From the NCBI RefSeq assembly GCF_000377665.1, contig NZ_KB898647.1:561559-625558 (forward strand): a stretch of 64,000 bases of DNA, in the 5' to 3' direction. A program made the translations under genes and the position numbers. This document shows, one piece after another, positions 8,462 through 20,688 of the stretch. The stretch comes from Vreelandella zhanjiangensis DSM 21076. GTDB lineage: Bacteria; Pseudomonadota; Gammaproteobacteria; Pseudomonadales; Halomonadaceae. The notes under the pieces were generated by a model. The model had not been told where the DNA came from. It saw nothing but the letters and a program-made list of their open reading frames with translations, and made no database searches. The number at the start of each line of letters is the position of its first letter. The first letter of the stretch is position 1.

Positions 8462-11400
8462 CCTACCCGCACGCCCCATGGGGGCGTGACGTTTCAACCC
8501 CATCCACCATGAGCGCCATGGTTTGGTTTCTATCCACACACCCTGGCGGGGCGCGACAGACCATCGGCATCGCGGATCAGTTCGCGATACTGTTTCTATC
8601 CGCACGCCCCGAGCGGGGCGCGACGTCGGCCAGCACACGGTCTTTACGCTCGTCCGCTTTGTTTCTATCCGCACGCCCCAAGCGGGGCGCGACCTGGGCG
8701 CGCATGCTGAGCGATCTGGGCACTGTTGAGTTTCTATCCGCACGCCCCGAGCGGGGCGCGACACGTACAACATCAGAGCATATGTACTCGCCGCAGTTTC
8801 TATCCGCACGCCCCTAGCGGGGCGCGACCTGAGTTTCGTGGTGTGGCTGGCTATTACATGAATGTTTCTATCCGCACGCCCCGAGCGGGGCGCGACCTAG
8901 CCGAAATGGCTCAGGCCAGCAACTAATCAAGGTTTCTATCCGCACGCCCCGAGCGGGGCGCGACTTTTCACTGCATTGGCTCTTCAACTCGTTATAGGTT
9001 TCTATCCGCACGCCCCGAGCGGGGCGCGACAAGCGCACGGTATAAGCGCCGGGCACGTCGTAGGGTTTCTATCCGCACGCCCCGAGCGGGGCGCGACCAG
9101 GGCGTCTTGCTGCTCGCCTAGTTTGTAGTCAGTTTCTATCCGCACGCCCCGAGCGGGGCGCGACGTTCGCTAGCCAATCTTGCTGAGTGGTGGCGCTTTG
9201 TTTCTATCCGCACGCCCCGAGCGGGGCGCGACGAGCCTGGGTGCTTGTGTCCTCAAGATTCAGACGACGTTTCTATCCGCACGCCCCGAGCGGGGCGCGA
9301 CTTACTCGAGCAGCCGCAGCATTAGCCGATGAGGAGTTTCTATCCGCACGCCCCGAGCGGGGCGCGACGCAGGACGTCTTGCCGCTGTTGACCATCATGC
9401 ACAGTTTCTATCCGCACGCCCCGAGCGGGGCGCGACTACCCGCTATAACGTCGGTGGTGAGGATCTTTATGTTTCTATCCGCACGCCCCGAGCGGGGCGC
9501 GACTGATCCGTTGGGTTTGACGTTGCTATCATCTCCTGTTTCTATCCGCACGCCCCGAGCGGGGCGCGACGTTCGTGGCGGGTGCTGCCGAGTGGGGTAT
9601 TGATGTTTCTATCCGCACGCCCCGAGCGGGGCGCGACTCTTGCATCGGGCCATGACATACGCATGATTGGTGTTTCTATCCGCACGCCCCGAGCGGGGCG
9701 CGACATATGAACCAGCTTATTGGCGAGCGCATCACCGAGGTTTCTATCCGCACGCCCCGAGCGGGGCGCGACATGTCAGCAGCCATTTGTATTTTGGACT
9801 TCAAATGTTTCTATCCGCACGCCCCGAGCGGGGCGCGACTACGTTTGGCGTGTCCGTAGAATCGCCACCGAAACTGTTTCTATCCGCACGCCCCGAGCGG
9901 GGCGCGACCTGCTCGACATTCTGGCCGGGCTTGTTGTGATTGTTTCTATCCGCACGCCCCGAGCGGGGCGCGACAAAGCGTGCCGTCAGTGGTTTCAGCC
10001 GATCCAGGAGTTTCTATCCGCACGCCCCGAGCGGGGCGCGACGCCGCGGCTTCGCTGGTTTTGCCTAGTGCCAGCTGTTTCTATCCGCACGCCCCGAGCG
10101 GGGCGCGACGATCCACACCAATATAACGCTGCACTTTGATCTTTGTTTCTATCCGCACGCCCCGAGCGGGGCGCGACATCATCGGCGCGCCGGGTTACTC
10201 GCATGCCAAAGTTTCTATCCGCACGCCCCGAGCGGGGCGCGACCTATGGGGAGGGGGAGGGGGGCGTTAAAATGTTGGTTTCTATCCGCACGCCCCGAGC
10301 GGGGCGCGACGAAGAAAGTAATGCCGAAGGTGTTTTGGCGGTAGAGTTTCTATCCGCACGCCCCGAGCGGGGCGCGACTTGTGTGGATGGATGATCGGGT
10401 CAATAACCGCAGTTTCTATCCGCACGCCCCGAGCGGGGCGCGACCTTGATAGCTGGTGTACGGCTGCTCTTGCAACGTGTTTCTATCCGCACGCCCCGAG
10501 CGGGGCGCGACTTAACAATCTGCTCCCATCAAACGCTCCAACGGGTAGTTTCTATCCGCACGCCCCGAGCGGGGCGCGACGCCATCGACTATGTAGCCTA
10601 GCCCATTAGGAAAGTTTCTATCCGCACGCCCCGAGCGGGGCGCGACACGTCGACAAGATTGGCTCGCCCAAGTCGCTTTTTGTTTCTATCCGCACGCCCC
10701 GAGCGGGGCGCGACTGGGCCAGTCTGCAATCTGGGCCACGGCGTAAAAGTTTCTATCCGCACGCCCCGAGCGGGGCGCGACCTCGCCCACAGGTTCCCAT
10801 TTGTTCTTGAAGCCTTTGTTTCTATCCGCACGCCCCGAGCGGGGCGCGACCGGCTTGTTTGGTCAACCATGTCGGCACGAGTGATAGTTTCTATCCGCAC
10901 GCCCCGAGCGGGGCGCGACGCTAAGGACGTGGGCGCTATCGGTATCGAGGTGGTTTCTATCCGCACGCCCCGAGCGGGGCGCGACACCAACCTCAGTAGA
11001 TGGTCAAAACGCTTGGGAGGGTTTCTATCCGCACGCCCCGAGCGGGGCGCGACCGGTTGGTATGCCGCAGCTGGCTACGTGATGGTGTTTCTATCCGCAC
11101 GCCCCGAGCGGGGCGCGACACGCTTCATCTTTGCGCGGATCGTCGCGCCAGTGTTTCTATCCGCACGCCCCGAGCGGGGCGCGACGTCCGTCTGTATGGC
11201 TTGCTGCAAGCATTATCAGCAAGGTTTCTATCCGCACGCCCCGAGCGGGGCGCGACATGAGCCTAAAGGTGACGGCGCAGGTAATGCGCGAGTTTCTATC
11301 CGCACGCCCCGAGCGGGGCGCGACCCGTTGTTGTCAGTCTGCGTCGCACCCATGTTCTTGTTTCTATCCGCACGCCCCGAGCGGGGCGCGACCGACATGT

Positions 11401-12886
11401 ACCGCCCTCATTCGCGACTGTACATACAGTTTCTATCCGCACGCCCCGAGCGGGGCGCGACGCCGTAGATCGAGTCGTCTTCCGCGCCTTCGGCAAGTTT
11501 CTATCCGCACGCCCCGAGCGGGGCGCGACGGCATTGCCCGGGCTGGCGTCATGCGCCACGTTGAGTTTCTATCCGCACGCCCCGAGCGGGGCGCGACCAT
11601 ATCGTGACGCGGGTGAATGCGTCGCAGATCAAGTTTCTATCCGCACGCCCCGAGCGGGGCGCGACCCTAGTGTTCGCGATTAATATCGATGGCTCATCAC
11701 TGTTTCTATCCGCACGCCCCGAGCGGGGCGCGACGTACTGGCGTCAGCTACGGCGTGGTTGAGCGCATCGTTTCTATCCGCACGCCCCGAGCGGGGCGCG
11801 ACGCCACCCGGCAACGCTCAACTGGTACAACGCACCGTTTCTATCCGCACGCCCCGAGCGGGGCGCGACGCAGCTCGTAGACGATCCGCTCCATGACGAC
11901 ACTGTTTCTATCCGCACGCCCCGAGCGGGGCGCGACCTTACATCACCCGGCGAGGTGGTATCGATAAACAGGTTTCTATCCGCACGCCCCGAGCGGGGCG
12001 CGACCGCGCAGGCCTATCGGGGTACGGAGCTTGGTATTGTTTCTATCCGCACGCCCCGAGCGGGGCGCGACGCCCTTCGATAGCTGGCCCATTACCAGGA
12101 CGGCAGCGTTTCTATCCGCACGCCCCGAGCGGGGCGCGACCGGGTTCGCTCTGTTACCTCGGGCGGCATGCTGCTTGTTTCTATCCGCACGCCCCGAGCG
12201 GGGCGCGACGATAGCGTCATCTGTGAAGCTGATCGTAGGATTCAGTTTCTATCCGCACGCCCCGAGCGGGGCGCGACGGCGAAATGTGCGGGAGACTTTC
12301 TGTAGCCTACGTTTCTATCCGCACGCCCCGAGCGGGGCGCGACGTGAGTTTCTCGATGAAACCTACCGGGACACCGGTTGTTTCTATCCGCACGCCCCGA
12401 GCGGGGCGCGACGCAACGAGGCCAGGGGTTCCAGCGAGGCATTCATGTTTCTATCCGCACGCCCCGAGCGGGGCGCGACGCGGGCATATTCCAGCCGCCC
12501 GGGCCGGTAATGGTTTCTATCCGCACGCCCCGAGCGGGGCGCGACGAATTTTCCAGGGGGAGGTTGTTGTTTTGTCTAAGTTTCTATCCGCACGCCCCGA
12601 GCGGGGCGCGACCAGGGTGATTTGATCGTCACGCCAACGCGGACATGGTTTCTATCCGCACGCCCCGAGCGGGGCGCGACACGTGAGTCGTTTGTAGGTC
12701 ACACCGGCGGCGTGTGGTTTCTATCCGCACGCCCCGAGCGGGGCGCGACGCGCTTGAGCAGATTAATCAGCGCTATCGTGCCGGTGTTTCTATCCGCACG
12801 CCCCGAGCGGGGCGCGACTGGTAGTAACGTTGCCAATGCCTGCTGGTACTAAAGTTTCTATCCGCACGCCCCGAGCGGGGCGCGAC
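8456..12886 (-). CRISPR. Type I-C CRISPR array, 65 repeats plus one decayed repeat
   Basis: The 33-nt repeat reads on the plus strand GTTTCTATCCGCACGCCCC, then GAGCGGGGCGCGAC. On the transcribed (minus) strand it begins GTCGCGCCCC and ends GGATAGAAAC, with a CGCCCC-GCTC-GGGGCG hairpin. I count 65 repeats starting at 8526, 8592, 8661 and so on to 12854, with start-to-start spacing of 66-71 nt and spacers of 33-38 nt (64 spacers). A further decayed copy lies at 8456-8490, separated from the first by a 35-nt spacer. Variants are confined to the left end: 8526 (ACACACCCTGG), 8661 (CCCCAAGC) and 8796 (CCCCTAGC). The rest look identical. With cas genes and leader on the right, new spacers enter at the right; the left end is the old trailer. 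Spacer targets cannot be identified without a search. Confidence 0.99.
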
Positions 12887-13009
12887 TGTAGTGTTTATAA
12901 CATCATGAAAAATAAAAGCAAAAAAGTGAGTTGCTGCGAAACACCGTGTACCAGCCGCTTTTTCTTGGTACGAAGAAGTAAGCAAAAGAATTTGCTAGTA
13001 AAAACAATT

Positions 13010-13020
13010 TATTAAAGAGC
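13010..13020 (-). promoter_or_regulatory. boxA-like antitermination element in the CRISPR leader
   Basis: The minus strand reads GCTCTTTAATA followed by AATTG, fitting the boxA consensus GYTCTTTAANA and close to the E. coli rrn boxA core GCTCTTTAACA. It lies 123 nt before the first repeat. BoxA recruits NusB/NusE and protects untranslated RNA from Rho; boxA in CRISPR leaders has been reported in enterobacteria. Confidence 0.7.
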
Positions 13021-13046
13021 TGCGAACTTGGCGGGGTTTTACAAGA

Positions 13047-13065
13047 CACTTGCGGTTCGCAAGTG
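13047..13065 (-). other. Perfect hairpin upstream of boxA
   Basis: CACTTGCG and CGCAAGTG form an 8-bp stem with a 3-nt loop, just past the cas2 stop and 26 nt before boxA in the direction of transcription. No U-run follows, so it is not an intrinsic terminator. Position relative to boxA recalls the boxB-boxA order of rrn leaders. Confidence 0.6.
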
Positions 13066-13074
13066 AGAGAAATA

Positions 13075-13365
13075 TCAAAAAACTAAAGGACCATTCATAT
13101 CCAAGGCGGGCTTGGCGCCTATATGTTCGATACGGTTTTTCCAGTTTCGGCCCAGGAAGTAAAAACGTAAGCTATCTACGTCGTCATCAATCAAGTCGAT
13201 TAGACGTTGACGAAAGCGTACCCATTGATCGGGATCAACTTCGATTTCAAATACGGAAAATTGTACTCGCTGCCCTACATCACGACACGCTTTTGCCACT
13301 CGCCTCAATCTACCGTTACCGCCTTCTGAAGAGGTGCTGACATCGTAACTGACCAGTACCATCAT
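13075..13365 (-). CDS. cas2: CRISPR-associated endonuclease Cas2
   Basis: Small ferredoxin-fold protein (96 aa) that bridges two Cas1 dimers in the integrase complex that inserts new spacers. The first strand MMVLVSYDVST carries the conserved aspartate. The later LRFYFLGRNW segment is typical of type I-C Cas2. The start has GAGG eight bases upstream. It is the last gene of the cas operon, 18 bp after cas1 and adjoining the leader. Confidence 0.96.
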   Translation of the reverse strand: MMVLVSYDVSTSSEGGNGRLRRVAKACRDVGQRVQFSVFEIEVDPDQWVRFRQRLIDLIDDDVDSLRFYFLGRNWKNRIEHIGAKPALDMNGPLVF

Positions 13366-13383: not shown

Positions 13384-14424
13384 CTATTTCCAAAGAAAAG
13401 GTGGGTAAGCATCCAAATCACCACGAAGGTGGCGTGCCATTAATTGCGCTTGCAGTATGGGCAGCATGCCGATAGGGACTTTTTCATCAACAAACGTATG
13501 CAAAAGCTCTTCACGCTTTCGCTCTTGGTAAGCCGTCAGTACTAGCTTTCGGGCATCGTCTGTCATGACGACACCATTACTTTCAGTGATGTTAAAGTCC
13601 TTTTCGCGTAACTGGCGGCGGTTTATGAGCGACAGGGCTAGTCGATCACCCAGCAAAGGGCGAAACTCTTCAGCAAGGTCGAGCGCAAGACTTGGGCGCC
13701 CCGGGCGGTCCCGGTGTAGAAAGCCTACGGCGGGGTCTAACCCTACGCTTTCTAGTGCTGAACGGCAGTCGTGGGTAAGCAGGGTATACAAAAACGACAG
13801 TAACGCATTAATGCGGTCTCTCGGCGGGCGGCGATTGCGGCCTTTAAACTCAAACGCACCACCTTCTTGGCGTACGAGTAAATTGAATATACTGAAATAG
13901 ACGTGGGCGGCTTCGCCTTCCAGTCCTCGCAGCTCATTGGTGGTTGCAGGTTGTAATAAATTTCGAGCAATGCGGCTTAGTCGGTCACGGGCCACTTCAA
14001 GGCGTTGGCGCTCTTGAGGAGGCATCTTGCTGCCATAATCGCGAATGCCCCGGGCGAGAACAGCGCGCTGGTTATGGACTTTACCAATCAAAAGGCTGCT
14101 GACCAGACTTGAGCAGGACGTTTCGTTATCACTGACGCGATATTGAGTGCGTCTGAGTAATACATTGCCAGAGACGGGGCCTTCAATACGCGCCAGAAAT
14201 TTTCCGTTGGGCGATAGGTGTGTGATTGTCACGCCTTGTTCGGCGCAGAAGCCCATTAATGGTGGGGATACGAGCACACGCCCAAAACATACGAGAGATT
14301 CCAGCATATGAATGGGAAGCCTGGCGCGCTCTTTACCTTCTACCTGCATTACAATATTGGCGCCTTCTTTCTTAAGCCAAGCACCTTCGGTAGTGATGTA
14401 CAGAGAGTTTAACTGTCGTCGCAT
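13384..14424 (-). CDS. cas1: CRISPR-associated endonuclease/integrase Cas1 (type I-C)
   Basis: Metal-dependent integrase that cuts and joins prespacers at the leader-repeat junction. The 346 residues comprise an N-terminal beta domain and a C-terminal helical catalytic domain. Probable metal ligands are E169 (GLEGEAAH), H237 (GFLHRDR) and an acidic residue in DLAEEF (249-253). Length matches Cas1 of subtype I-C. The gene follows cas4 by 5 bp and precedes cas2 by 18 bp, implying coupled translation. All expected residues appear intact. Confidence 0.97.
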   Translation of the reverse strand: MRRQLNSLYITTEGAWLKKEGANIVMQVEGKERARLPIHMLESLVCFGRVLVSPPLMGFCAEQGVTITHLSPNGKFLARIEGPVSGNVLLRRTQYRVSDNETSCSSLVSSLLIGKVHNQRAVLARGIRDYGSKMPPQERQRLEVARDRLSRIARNLLQPATTNELRGLEGEAAHVYFSIFNLLVRQEGGAFEFKGRNRRPPRDRINALLSFLYTLLTHDCRSALESVGLDPAVGFLHRDRPGRPSLALDLAEEFRPLLGDRLALSLINRRQLREKDFNITESNGVVMTDDARKLVLTAYQERKREELLHTFVDEKVPIGMLPILQAQLMARHLRGDLDAYPPFLWK

Positions 14425-14429
14425 GGGCG

Positions 14430-15068
14430 TTACTCGTCCAGGGCATCAAGTTGCCGGGTAAGCCATCGGCTTGCGGAGCGCTGCTTGCTAAACACTTGGG
14501 GTTGGCAAATATCGATAAGGGAACAGTGATCACACTTTTTCGCATCATAAATAGCCGATGGTGTCTGTTGTTCATCAAAAATAGCGCGGGTTTGTTCAAT
14601 GATACGATGAGTTAACGCACGTAGAGTGTCATCAAATACTACCTCTTTGCGCCGTCGTGTTTTGCCATAAAAGAGGGCGCCCGCATCGATATGAAGGTCC
14701 AGCATCTCTTCCAGGCAAAGCGCTTGAGCGCATAGTTGAACTTCATCCGCTCGATGCGCTTTAGGTCGCCCGCGTTTGTACTCGATAGGTCGTACGATTA
14801 AAGGCGATTGACGTTCGTCAAACTCTACAACATCGGCAATACCGCTTAAGCCCAGCTGCTCACTTGCCAGAGGCAATGCCATGGAAGTATGCACACCGCG
14901 CCTGCGCTGATGCCCCAGCTGGTCCGCTCGTTCATGTAGCAATCGGCCTTCTGCCGTATAGCGGTTTTCTGCCCATTGCTGCTCTACATGAATCAGCGCG
15001 CATTGGCGCGGGCAGAACAGCGTATGTTGCAGGGCAGAAAGCGGTATAGGACGCGCGTCCTCTTCCAT
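14430..15068 (-). CDS. cas4: CRISPR-associated exonuclease Cas4
   Basis: RecB-family nuclease that trims prespacers and helps select those next to the right PAM. The 212-residue protein has an N-terminal cysteine pair region (C19, C23 in FCPRQC), nuclease residues D79, E96 and K98 (IADVVEF; IEYKRG), and three C-terminal cysteines C179, C182 and C188 (CDHCSLIDIC) for a [4Fe-4S] cluster. A Cas4 acting with Cas1 is standard in subtype I-C. The start lies 10 bp after the cas7 stop. Confidence 0.96.
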   Translation of the reverse strand: MEEDARPIPLSALQHTLFCPRQCALIHVEQQWAENRYTAEGRLLHERADQLGHQRRRGVHTSMALPLASEQLGLSGIADVVEFDERQSPLIVRPIEYKRGRPKAHRADEVQLCAQALCLEEMLDLHIDAGALFYGKTRRRKEVVFDDTLRALTHRIIEQTRAIFDEQQTPSAIYDAKKCDHCSLIDICQPQVFSKQRSASRWLTRQLDALDE

Positions 15069-15078
15069 GGCGATTCAC

Positions 15079-15944
15079 CTATAGGTGTTCTTCTAGCGTA
15101 ACACCCGAGGGTAGTGATTCGCGGGCGATATTGACCTGGTAGTCGCTGTAGTGGCGTGCGGGTGTCTCTTCAGTTCCTTCAATGCGCTTCACTTGAACGC
15201 TATCGAAGAGTACATGAGCGGGCGCGTTACCCATGGGGTGATCATGCTTGAAAACAATGAGTTTACGGGTAGACATCTCACCCCGCGCGGCAGAACGGTC
15301 ATGTTCAAACATGTTAATCAGAGAGCGCCATAGAAGAGCTAAGTCGTCATCTGAAAAGCCGGTACGTTCAGCTAATTTCGCTGAGACATAGCCGTGTGCG
15401 CGGTATAGGCCATAAGGAATTATATGTTTGCGCCCCATGGTACGCTCTTTTTCAAGATCCTTTTCATTGGTAACCGCCATACGAGTAATGGAGACTTCCA
15501 TGGGGATGACAGGATCAATGGAGCTTGCAAAGGCCACTTGGACAGGGCCGCGTACTTGGCCGGAATTGACTTCGGTCGTCATGACCGCGCCGAAAGCGCG
15601 TACATCGAAGAAATTGTTGCACATCCATTCGGTGACCTGGCGCGCTTTTTCCGCTTCCTTGGGTAATTTTTTAGACTCAGGCTTTATATCTAGCGCTTCA
15701 TAGGCTTTTTTATGTTGGTTATTAAGTACCGACTTTTCTTGCATATAAATGGCATAGCCAGCGTCTTGTTCTTTTTCGAGTGCAACATAGTTGCGAATCT
15801 TTCGTTTTAGACAAACATCCGTGACAAGCCCCTGGTTGGTCTCTGGGTCTAACCGTGGCAGGTTGCCTGCATCCGGGTCGCCGTTGGGATTACCGTTGGT
15901 GACATCAAATAAAAGGACAAATTCGTAACGGTTAGTAATAGCGT

Positions 15945-15948
<4 letters not shown>
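15079..15948 (-). CDS. cas7: Type I-C Cascade backbone protein Cas7 (Csd2)
   Basis: RRM-fold subunit that polymerises along the crRNA to form the Cascade filament. The 289 residues start [20 protein letters not shown], the N-terminal signature of Csd2/Csh2-type Cas7, followed by DVRAFGAVM and [14 protein letters not shown]. Length is usual for the family. Its ATG overlaps the cas8c stop by 4 bp (ATGA), so translation is coupled. It is encoded after the large subunit, as in canonical I-C operons. Confidence 0.96.
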
Positions 15949-18418
<2,470 letters not shown>

Positions 18419-18435
18419 CTATAAATGTTGTATGT

Positions 18436-20688
18436 TTACCACTGTAAGCTTTCGGCTCGCATAAAGGTTGGGTCGCTCCAGTTCAACCCTAGCGCATTGT
18501 CGTAGAGGTCTTCATTGACCAATAGCATGAATTGGTCATTAAATTTATCCCGTTCGATGGGCGCAATGGCACCGACCTTCTCAAGGGCTCTGAAGCCGTT
18601 ATAGGGCACTTGTACTGTATAGAGCTGTAGTTTTCGGGCGATACCGCCTGCGCCTGTGGCAAAGGCAAGCTCTTTAATCGCTTTGCTTGCATCAGTATCA
18701 AAAGGAATAATGACACTTCTTTGATTGTTGTCGATGAGGCGGAATTTCTTTTCGAGGGTTTCAAAAGGCAGGCCGTCAAGCCGACCTTTTTCAATCAGCG
18801 AGAGCAGTTGGTGCTTGTCGAGTTGGTCAGCTCCTTGCTGCCAGTAAAGCAGCTTGAAGTACGCATCGATAGCTTCCAGCGCGAGCGGATCGTGGCTATG
18901 CTGGCGTAGCACTTCGCGGGTGGCTTGGGCAAACTGTTTTAGCTCGGGTGGCGGCGCCCACTCTTCATTGGCCGTTGCAAAAATACGCACTTCGCTTTCT
19001 TCGGCGCTTCGCTTATCTTCCCGATTACAGCGACCGGCGGCCTGAGCGATGGAGTCCAGGCCCGCTTCGGCGCGCAGCACTCTCGGAAAGTCTACATCGA
19101 CGCCGGCTTCAATTAATGATGTAGAAACAACGCGGCAAGGCTTGCCTTCTTTAAGCGTTTCACGAATATGGTGTAATACCTGCCGTCGATGAGCAGCACA
19201 CATGGCGGTAGTCAGATGAAAAGCGCCTGGCTGGTCGGCGATGGATTCATATAGGACTCTGGCATGACGGCGGTTATTGACAATGCACAGCACCTGTTCA
19301 ACCGCTAACAGTTCGTCACGTAATTGCGCGTCATCCAGGCTGCCGATATGCCGCACCGTCACTCGCTGTAAGTCTCGGTAGAGTTCTTTGGGGTGGGGGG
19401 CTAGTTCCTCGACGTTTTTGAATCCACCTGCGAAGCTATGTTCTGGGTCATCGGTCTCAATAAGCGCGGGTTGGGTGGCAGTACACAGTACGATACTGGT
19501 GTGATAATTCAGCGCTAGTTCATCCAATGCAGCAACACTTGGTCGAAGCAAAGGCAGGGGCATTGTTTGGGCTTCATCTAAAATAACAACGCTGCGAGCA
19601 ATATTGTGTAGCTTACGGCAGCGCGATGTTTTAGCGGCAAAAAGGCTTTCCAGAAATTGCACCGACGTCGTCACTATGATCGGTGCATCCCAGTTTTCGC
19701 TGTCGCGTTTGAGTTTGTCGAGACTCGTTTTATCGCCTTTAGTGGTTTTTTCAGCCTCGAAGGTGCTGTGGTGTTCGAGTACGGCTTCAGCGCCATATTG
19801 GCCTAACGCATGCCGAAAAACGGCAGCGTTCTGCTCAACGATACTGGTAAAGGGAATGACATAGATAATGCGATCCATGCCATGGGCGATGGCATGATCT
19901 AGCGCGAAGGCCAAGGAAGCTAGTGTTTTGCCGCCGCCTGTCGGTACGGTGAGAGTAAAACATCCTGGTTTGGTGTCAGCTTTTTGGCGCACCTCACGCA
20001 GAATATGCCCGCGTAATCGATTGATACCTTTTTCAGTATCGAAAGTTTCCAGGTGTTCATTAAGCGCTTTGCGAAGCTGCTTTAAAGACGCCCCCCCGCC
20101 GCGAGGATGCGTTAAGCCGGTTTCATGCCGTGCATAGAAAGTTTCGGTATCGATATAGTCCGCATCCACCAAACACGAGAAAAGCATTCTAGTGAGAAAA
20201 GAGAGCTGAAAGAAAGCGCGCTCTGGAAGTTGTGTGAATGTGCTTGGAGGGGCTGGTTCTGCTGGTAAAGTGAGCGCATGTTGCCAAGCGCTGTCTATGG
20301 CAGGAATCTCAGCGTTAAGGCGATCGTCAAGAGACGAGCGCTCGCCTGAGTCACGCCCATTGGCAAGCCCTGCATGATGACCAGCAATGCAGTAAGCCAG
20401 CAGGTCGCCCACTCCTTTACGAAATTGCTGTTTAGCAATAATCGCGCCCGCTGTAGAGTGATCAACTCGTTCCGGGAAGCCTTCCAGTCGTCGCTGGAAA
20501 GGTACGCTGTATTTGCCCAAATCATGCAAAAGGCCTGCCGCATAACCGGCATCGGCCATGCCGAAACGCTCAGCGCGTGTTGCGGCCATCTCTGCAACGC
20601 ACTTTAAATGGTCATCTAAGGCTTGCCAGTTTTGCTTACCCACTTCTGGGAGTGAGTGGGCGTAAAAATGGACGGTCTCTGGTGGCAT
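18436..20688 (-). CDS. cas3: CRISPR-associated nuclease-helicase Cas3
   Basis: Recruited by target-bound Cascade to nick, unwind and degrade DNA. The 750 residues hold an N-terminal HD nuclease (HAHS-like start at 9-12, H55-D56 in LLHDLGKY, H104-H105 in AGHHAGL) and an SF2 helicase: Walker A TGGGKT (K254), DEAQ box at 371-374, TATQP, and the late QAAGRCNRE motif VI. HD and helicase are fused, as usual in I-C. It is the first gene of the cas operon. I could not identify a convincing promoter in the 204 bp upstream shared with serS. Confidence 0.97.
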   Translation of the reverse strand: MPPETVHFYAHSLPEVGKQNWQALDDHLKCVAEMAATRAERFGMADAGYAAGLLHDLGKYSVPFQRRLEGFPERVDHSTAGAIIAKQQFRKGVGDLLAYCIAGHHAGLANGRDSGERSSLDDRLNAEIPAIDSAWQHALTLPAEPAPPSTFTQLPERAFFQLSFLTRMLFSCLVDADYIDTETFYARHETGLTHPRGGGASLKQLRKALNEHLETFDTEKGINRLRGHILREVRQKADTKPGCFTLTVPTGGGKTLASLAFALDHAIAHGMDRIIYVIPFTSIVEQNAAVFRHALGQYGAEAVLEHHSTFEAEKTTKGDKTSLDKLKRDSENWDAPIIVTTSVQFLESLFAAKTSRCRKLHNIARSVVILDEAQTMPLPLLRPSVAALDELALNYHTSIVLCTATQPALIETDDPEHSFAGGFKNVEELAPHPKELYRDLQRVTVRHIGSLDDAQLRDELLAVEQVLCIVNNRRHARVLYESIADQPGAFHLTTAMCAAHRRQVLHHIRETLKEGKPCRVVSTSLIEAGVDVDFPRVLRAEAGLDSIAQAAGRCNREDKRSAEESEVRIFATANEEWAPPPELKQFAQATREVLRQHSHDPLALEAIDAYFKLLYWQQGADQLDKHQLLSLIEKGRLDGLPFETLEKKFRLIDNNQRSVIIPFDTDASKAIKELAFATGAGGIARKLQLYTVQVPYNGFRALEKVGAIAPIERDKFNDQFMLLVNEDLYDNALGLNWSDPTFMRAESLQW

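Follow-up and report, generated by a model that had tools for sequence, protein, structure and literature searches.

We propose with good confidence that the boxA-like element in the leader of the type I-C CRISPR array in the window (the whole stretch of 64,000 nucleotides that was analysed) is a genuine boxA that would serve Nus-factor antitermination of the untranslated array, so that distal spacers are transcribed, and that the hairpin upstream of it is no boxB. boxA recruits Nus factors. In the window, boxA in the nascent leader RNA would be bound by NusB-S10 (NusE), which together with NusA, NusG and SuhB would make the RNA polymerase Rho-resistant before transcription reaches the 4.3-kb untranslated array, with the old, leader-distal spacers still being transcribed. 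We infer Nus binding and protection from Rho at this locus, the function of boxA and the Nus factors having been established elsewhere (excerpts of PMC5725501 and PMC12691694). The genome encodes the NusB domain, a search with which gave two matches, one of them within a 192-aa frame.

The type I-C locus and its leader

The I-C cas genes are present with an array adjoining them, and on this basis the locus is of type I-C; the array runs in the direction of the cas genes (minus strand). IHF-like sites were scored against the IHF consensus YAANNNNYTGATW and, in I-F leaders, against its WATCARNNNNTTR form. The features of the locus are:

8592..12886, minus: type I-C CRISPR array, 64 repeats, 4.3 kb
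12898..12910, minus: IHF-like site adjoining the first repeat, 7/9 in the window
12936..12940, minus: site 3, TTCGC, at -54 from the first repeat
13002..13014, minus: IHF-like site, TAATAAATTGTTT, sharing TAA with boxA, 8/9 to the consensus
13010..13020, minus: boxA, GCTCTTTAATA, exact match to GYTCTTTAANA
13021..13027, minus: site 2, GTTCGCA, abutting boxA
13047..13065, minus: hairpin, CACTTGCG-AAC-CGCAAGTG, perfect 8-bp stem with a 3-nt loop
13055..13061, minus: site 1, TGCGAAC, inverted copy of site 2, found in 26/26 Halomonadaceae leaders
13075..13365, minus: putative cas2, named by its size and its place after cas1
13384..14424, minus: cas1c (TIGR03640)
14430..15068, minus: cas4 (TIGR00372)
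15079..15948, minus: cas7c (TIGR02589)
15945..17744, minus: cas8c (TIGR01863)
17741..18409, minus: cas5c (TIGR01876)
18436..20688, minus: cas3 (TIGR01587 and TIGR01596)

On the minus strand boxA starts 54 nt past the cas2 stop and 134 nt ahead of the first repeat. The 64 matches to the repeat end (at most 2 mismatches) all lie inside the single array, and a test for trans arrays found no such match outside it.

Elsewhere, L054 (about 2.5 kb) and L060 and L061 (about 0.7 kb) have extra DNA in the interval from cas1 to the array, on the upstream side of site 1. In all three, the stretch from site 1 to the repeat is intact and so is boxA, and in L054 a cas2-like 3' end still adjoins the leader. 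The cas7 matches of genome G634 (L078, L080 and L081) are fragmentary, some with internal stops, and its cas7 looks broken.

boxA occurs beyond chance expectation

The preliminary description had stated that the element fits the rRNA boxA consensus, and positions 13020 to 13010 of the minus strand are indeed an exact match to GYTCTTTAANA, a consensus taken from PMC5725501, excerpts of which also mention a critical position within boxA. The pattern is expected by chance about 0.0006 times per strand of a 188-nt leader. Over the whole genome it has 27 matches compared to 7 for the reversed pattern, and dinucleotide-shuffled Halomonadaceae I-C leaders contain an exact boxA in 0.19 % and a match of at least 9/10 in 3.1 % of cases. 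From the genome counts and the leader shuffles it follows that boxA is more frequent than chance. One further exact copy in the same genome (L163, C5:208282-208292) lies between two frames judged by eye to be ribosomal-protein-like, inside the short palindrome GCTCTTTAATAGAGAGC.

boxA is kept in all Halomonadaceae I-C leaders examined

Among 275 genomes of the family, 28 have a Cas7 match, and 26 leaders were used, the window included. Two were dropped, G616 being of another subtype (41 % identity) and G526 being cut by a contig end, while L063 and L064 are not from Halomonadaceae and were moved to the wide I-C set. The string TCTTTAA-N-A is invariant in 26/26 leaders. All 26 score at least 9/10 to boxA, 20 of them exactly, and the remaining six deviate at base 1 or 2 only. 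A score of at least 9/10 is reached on the opposite strand in 1/26 and by the reversed pattern in 0/26.

The eight fixed columns of boxA (TCTTTAA and A) each hold 2.0 bits of information and the N column 0.94, compared to a mean of 0.27 bits for the filler at +20 to +75; mean identity of the filler at +18 to +73 is 32 %. The columns at -35 to -10 upstream of boxA have a higher mean (1.06 bits) because other conserved motifs lie there; both site 2, directly upstream, and TG[AT]TT, shortly downstream of boxA, are conserved too. Fourteen leaders share less than 50 % filler identity with one another, and all of them retain TCTTTAA-N-A, eight with an exact boxA. boxA thus looks to be under selection in these leaders. 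A leader alignment had been named in the preliminary description as the check on boxA and hairpin together; the part concerning boxA stood, the element being kept in 26/26 while distant filler has diverged, and the part concerning the hairpin did not, its 8 pairs being formed in 2/26.

The leader element matches the rrn boxA of the family

The rrn boxA of six relatives reads GCTCTTTAACA in 20/20 loci, followed by AATTTGATC or AATCGATC. A 16S search of the window's own assembly gave no match, and four boxA copies of this genome lie at contig ends in an rrn-like context, one of which reads GCTCTTTAATA as in the CRISPR leader. The sequence that follows boxA in rrn, GATCAGGTAATTC (the boxC region), is missing from the window leader.

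boxA also occurs in I-F and I-E leaders of the Halomonadaceae

The I-F and I-E samples consist of the best-scoring 30 of 95 and the best-scoring 30 of 64 genomes with a match, with an array in 29 of each; since they are best-scoring matches and many come from one genus, close relatives included, these leaders are not independent. Within these samples, an exact boxA is found in 26/29 I-F leaders, at -38 or -39, and the three others have none at 9/10. All 29 I-E leaders have boxA at 9/10 or better (12 exact, 17 reading GATCTTTAANA), positioned at -96 to -98 in 24/29. The distance from the repeat in both types differs from that in I-C. Counts on the opposite strand are 0/29 for I-F and for I-E, the reversed pattern gives 0 and 1 respectively, and 4.0 % (I-F) and 4.7 % (I-E) of shuffled leaders reach 9/10.

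The variant GATCTTTAANA is outside the published boxA consensus. Its presence in 17/29 I-E leaders and also in 2/26 I-C leaders (L050 and L053) suggests that A is tolerated at position 2 of boxA.

I-C leaders of other families

The wide I-C set comprises 40 stretches (L116-L155), 30 with an array; L141 and L142 were excluded from the comparison anchored on site 2. In that comparison 5/24 non-Halomonad leaders have a boxA of at least 9/10 (shuffles 0.5 %), at offsets +7, +16, +20, +20 and +23, and most of the 24 have none in the stretch read. TCTTTAA is likewise absent from all 6 plasmid I-C leaders with an array (7 of 31 records read); the Rhizobium plasmid leader has GTTCTTTGAAATTGTG after site 2. 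A loosened boxA pattern was found in 10/36 leaders, with 0 on the opposite strand and 1 for the reversed pattern, a count that is approximate because the site-1 anchor is wrong in some leaders (e.g. L116, L123, L127, L132 and L149).

The leaders were also compared with the boxA of their own rrn, for which 6 of the 30 genomes searched have a readable rrn leader. Three of these six non-Halomonad genomes carry their own rrn boxA form inside the I-C leader. G693 matches its rrn boxA (GCTCTTTACAA) at 11/11, with identity over 13 nt and 0/300 shuffles doing as well; G300 matches at 10/11 (GCTCTTTGAAA vs GTTCTTTGAAA, 0/300 shuffles) and so does G342 (GCTCTTTAACA vs GCTCTTTAAAA, 2/300 shuffles). The I-C leaders of G861, G951 and G698 do not hold the rrn boxA of their genomes, the best agreement (7, 8 and 7 of 11) being at shuffle level. 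In the family of G693 (f207; 7 genomes with a Cas7 match, 5 read) GYTCTTTA[CT]AA stands shortly ahead of site 1 in 5/5 leaders read.

The place of boxA in the leader therefore varies, from before site 1 (G693's family) to between sites 1 and 2 (G342) and after site 2 (Halomonadaceae), and such varying places in an otherwise rigid leader are as expected for an independent RNA signal. Judging from its absence in most non-Halomonad leaders and from the three of six genomes without their own rrn form, boxA is dispensable for I-C systems as a class.

The upstream hairpin and the TTCGC-type sites

A perfect 8-bp hairpin 26 nt before boxA had been described in the window and is present there. Its proposed likeness to the boxB-boxA order of rRNA leaders did not survive the comparison: with G-U counted, only 2/26 leaders can form the full 8 pairs, no conserved boxB hairpin was found upstream of boxA across the 26 Halomonadaceae I-C leaders, and the conserved piece is the TGCGAAC motif, which also occurs without boxA. 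We therefore reject the hairpin as a boxB; it is a by-product of this leader DNA motif, itself probably part of the spacer-integration site.

TGCGAAC is site 1 of a set of three. GGTTCGC-type sites, three in number, the first inverted and all at rigid spacing, were seen in I-C leaders (L046-L155) from several phyla; in a Thermus leader the inverted pair is visible at the same distance. With a spacing of 15-60 allowed in 57 I-C leaders (L142, which has runs of N, excluded), the inverted pair of sites 1 and 2 scores at least 10/12 in 56/57, and in 50 of these the two starts are 32 bp apart. That score is attained by shuffles in 47/570 cases over the full spacing range and in 7/570 at 31-34 bp. 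Across the Halomonadaceae I-C leaders, site 3 lies at -53 or -54 and reads TTCGC or nearly so. At the variable middle position, 46 of the 54 leaders examined have C in each of the three copies, and 4 have A in each (L142 again excluded, only spacings of 31-34 allowed). The three sites keep their rigid spacing whether or not boxA is present. This rigid spacing across unconserved filler, together with the occurrence without boxA, points to a DNA role, and the three are most likely DNA sites for the integrase and IHF.

IHF-like sites flank this arrangement. After site 2, a match of 7-9/9 is found in 26/26 Halomonadaceae I-C leaders, and 8/24 non-Halomonad I-C leaders have one of at least 8/9 (shuffles 5.9 %), seven of these eight at +13 to +15. 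The site by the repeat scores at least 8/9 in 16/26 Halomonadaceae leaders compared to 5.5 % of shuffles. In I-F leaders (L208-L237) boxA leads directly into an IHF-like site (the WATCARNNNNTTR consensus) in 25/26 of those with boxA, the last A of boxA being the base common to both. Because boxA overlaps an IHF-like site in the rigid Halomonadaceae leader, part of its conservation may be at the DNA level. Santiago-Frangos et al. (2021) are said to have described IHF with upstream motifs in I-C, I-E, I-F and II-C leaders. Those leaders reportedly also have an IHF-like site by the repeat and an upstream motif in register; the present ones differ in having three copies of the GGTTCGC type, among them an inverted pair set far apart.

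Transcription of the leader

Promoters were scanned with a sigma-70 matrix built from hexamer frequencies, which weak or unusual promoters could escape. Upstream of boxA nothing in the 26 I-C leaders stood above shuffles (mean best score of 5.2 vs 5.7), and between boxA and the repeat the mean best is 6.8 vs 6.5; rrn controls score 11.1-12.6. Upstream of boxA in the other types the figures are 5.9 vs 5.4 for I-F and 3.7 vs 4.4 for I-E. No terminator-like site was found between cas2 and the array, where shuffles average only 0.5. Two candidates were set aside: boxA as a -10 element is argued against by C, not T, being commonest at the would-be last position, and TTATAA by the repeat is better read as the TTR end of the IHF-like site than as a promoter.

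Translation ends at the cas2 stop, and boxA follows so soon after it that the boxA-bearing RNA may come at least partly from read-through of the cas operon. The lack of a standout promoter on either side and of a terminator-like site makes read-through a likely source, the promoter scan itself giving weak support in that nothing stood out on either side of boxA.

Of the 11 boxA bases, 7 are paired in the minimum-free-energy fold predicted for the window leader and 3 in the centroid; the pairing in the former counts somewhat against easy access. The leader folds with z = -1.2, and 22/200 shuffles fold as well. The 8-bp hairpin forms in the predicted fold.

It is conceivable, if rather unlikely, that no separate promoter for the I-C array exists ahead of boxA and that boxA converts the polymerases leaving cas2, where the part of the operon coupled to translation is completed, so that cas genes and array form one antiterminated unit, with IHF-bound leaders, made for spacer integration, and transcribing polymerases competing for the same few bases. 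The proposed competition stems from the boxA bases that are common to the IHF-like sites (TAA in I-C, the last A in 25/26 I-F leaders). If true, spacer uptake would be tied to array expression.

Alternative explanations

The conserved block could instead be an IHF site in DNA (YAANNNNTTGATW) that folds the leader with the three TTCGC sites for integration by Cas4-Cas1-Cas2, the likeness to boxA being incidental. The IHF-like matches after site 2 in all Halomonadaceae leaders and in 8/24 others, the rigid distances across unalignable filler and the I-F boxA that again runs into an IHF-like site speak for it. We nevertheless hold it to be distinctly unlikely: neither TCTT nor the A that follows N belongs to the IHF consensus, yet they are invariant, while variation is seen in columns that are fixed in the IHF half (0.66 bits for its first T, 1.16 for its A). 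boxA also stands in other arrangements in I-E and I-F leaders, and elsewhere the local rrn form occurs ahead of site 1 or in the stretch from site 1 to site 2. Far less probable is that sites 1 and 2 pair in RNA, as a stem that presents boxA or that attenuates with site 3 as the alternative partner. TGCGAAC and GTTCGCA can form 7 pairs (G-U counted) in 26/26 leaders, the inverted repeat is there in 56/57 I-C leaders, and the variable base is matched as A or as C in all three copies (4 leaders and 46/54). But the near-invariant sequence and the rigid spacing over phyla resemble protein-DNA sites, the A/C switch affects a single base, the sites occur without boxA, and the stem is missing from the predicted minimum-free-energy fold.

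We give very little credence indeed to a full rRNA-like antiterminator with the 8-bp hairpin as a working boxB. The perfect stem does precede boxA by 26 nt, in the order seen in rRNA leaders, and forms in the predicted fold, but its 8 pairs fall to as few as 3 outside the two leaders that keep them, while the boxA core is never broken, and rrn GATCAGGTAATTC is missing after the leader boxA. That the block belongs to a promoter, for example with TTAACA of boxA as the -35 hexamer, is barely credible. TTAACA is the -35 of the best candidate after boxA in 6/26 leaders (L047, L051, L055, L056, L058 and L067), the one in L051 scoring 10.2; against this, the mean best score after boxA hardly differs from that of shuffles, and GCTC and the match to rrn boxA are left unexplained. 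A chance match, or descent of recently diverged leaders from a common ancestor with no selection acting, has a negligible probability. The motif is short, the sequence is AT-rich and many leaders come from close relatives, but this explanation is refuted by the diverged set, whose 14 leaders keep the core, and boxA recurs in three leader types. A genuine boxA acting in the leader RNA remains our preferred explanation.

Comparison with known systems

Stringer et al. (2020, eLife 9:e58182) reportedly found boxA upstream of CRISPR arrays and proposed that Nus recruitment there blocks Rho. A boxA of CRISPR leaders, with proposed Nus recruitment and a proposed block to Rho, is known from excerpts of PMC7862264, PMC12691694 and PMC10883916, in agreement with the preliminary description, which had noted boxA in the leaders of some CRISPR arrays. 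In the available text of PMC7862264, boxA added to a synthetic Legionella array gave about tenfold more precursor RNA and less polarity. The Rho attack on the array that had also been assumed has experimental backing for CRISPR leaders of P. aeruginosa, one of them I-C, where excerpts of PMC6700203 report Rho termination that bicyclomycin relieves. PhrS of P. aeruginosa also counteracts termination by Rho in CRISPR leaders, the I-C type among them (same excerpts), but it is a base-pairing sRNA instead of a boxA, and neither boxA nor NusB is mentioned in PMC6700203. The boxA of suhB is likewise a boxA outside rRNA and works there, with no mention of boxB in the available text (PMC5725501); it represses an mRNA, whereas the window boxA precedes a long untranslated RNA. 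Excerpts of PMC9071393, PMC9615192 and PMC6519985 hold nothing that bears on the question.

Compared to the rrn of Halomonadaceae, the CRISPR leader shares the same 11-mer, in some leaders followed by AATTTGAT as well. It differs in having neither a conserved boxB-like hairpin nor GATCAGGTAATTC, and TG[AT]TT downstream of boxA is a feature of the CRISPR side. An RNA signal, boxA, can in this way be separated from a rigid set of I-C DNA motifs that is mistakable for a boxB hairpin.

In one family boxA stands in leaders of three types, and certain other lineages have their own rrn form elsewhere in the leader; this comparative evidence would make boxA protection a repeatedly used means of transcribing CRISPR arrays. 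As far as the excerpts go, the window has in common with the CRISPR boxA of Stringer et al. a boxA upstream of the array and a proposed role in Nus recruitment and Rho. The differences are that the type is I-C, with I-F and I-E of the same family in addition, and that boxA directly follows cas2, no promoter being recognisable between the two. CRISPR-leader boxA elements are already known and, by the sequence of its leader, the I-C locus of the window is a further case.
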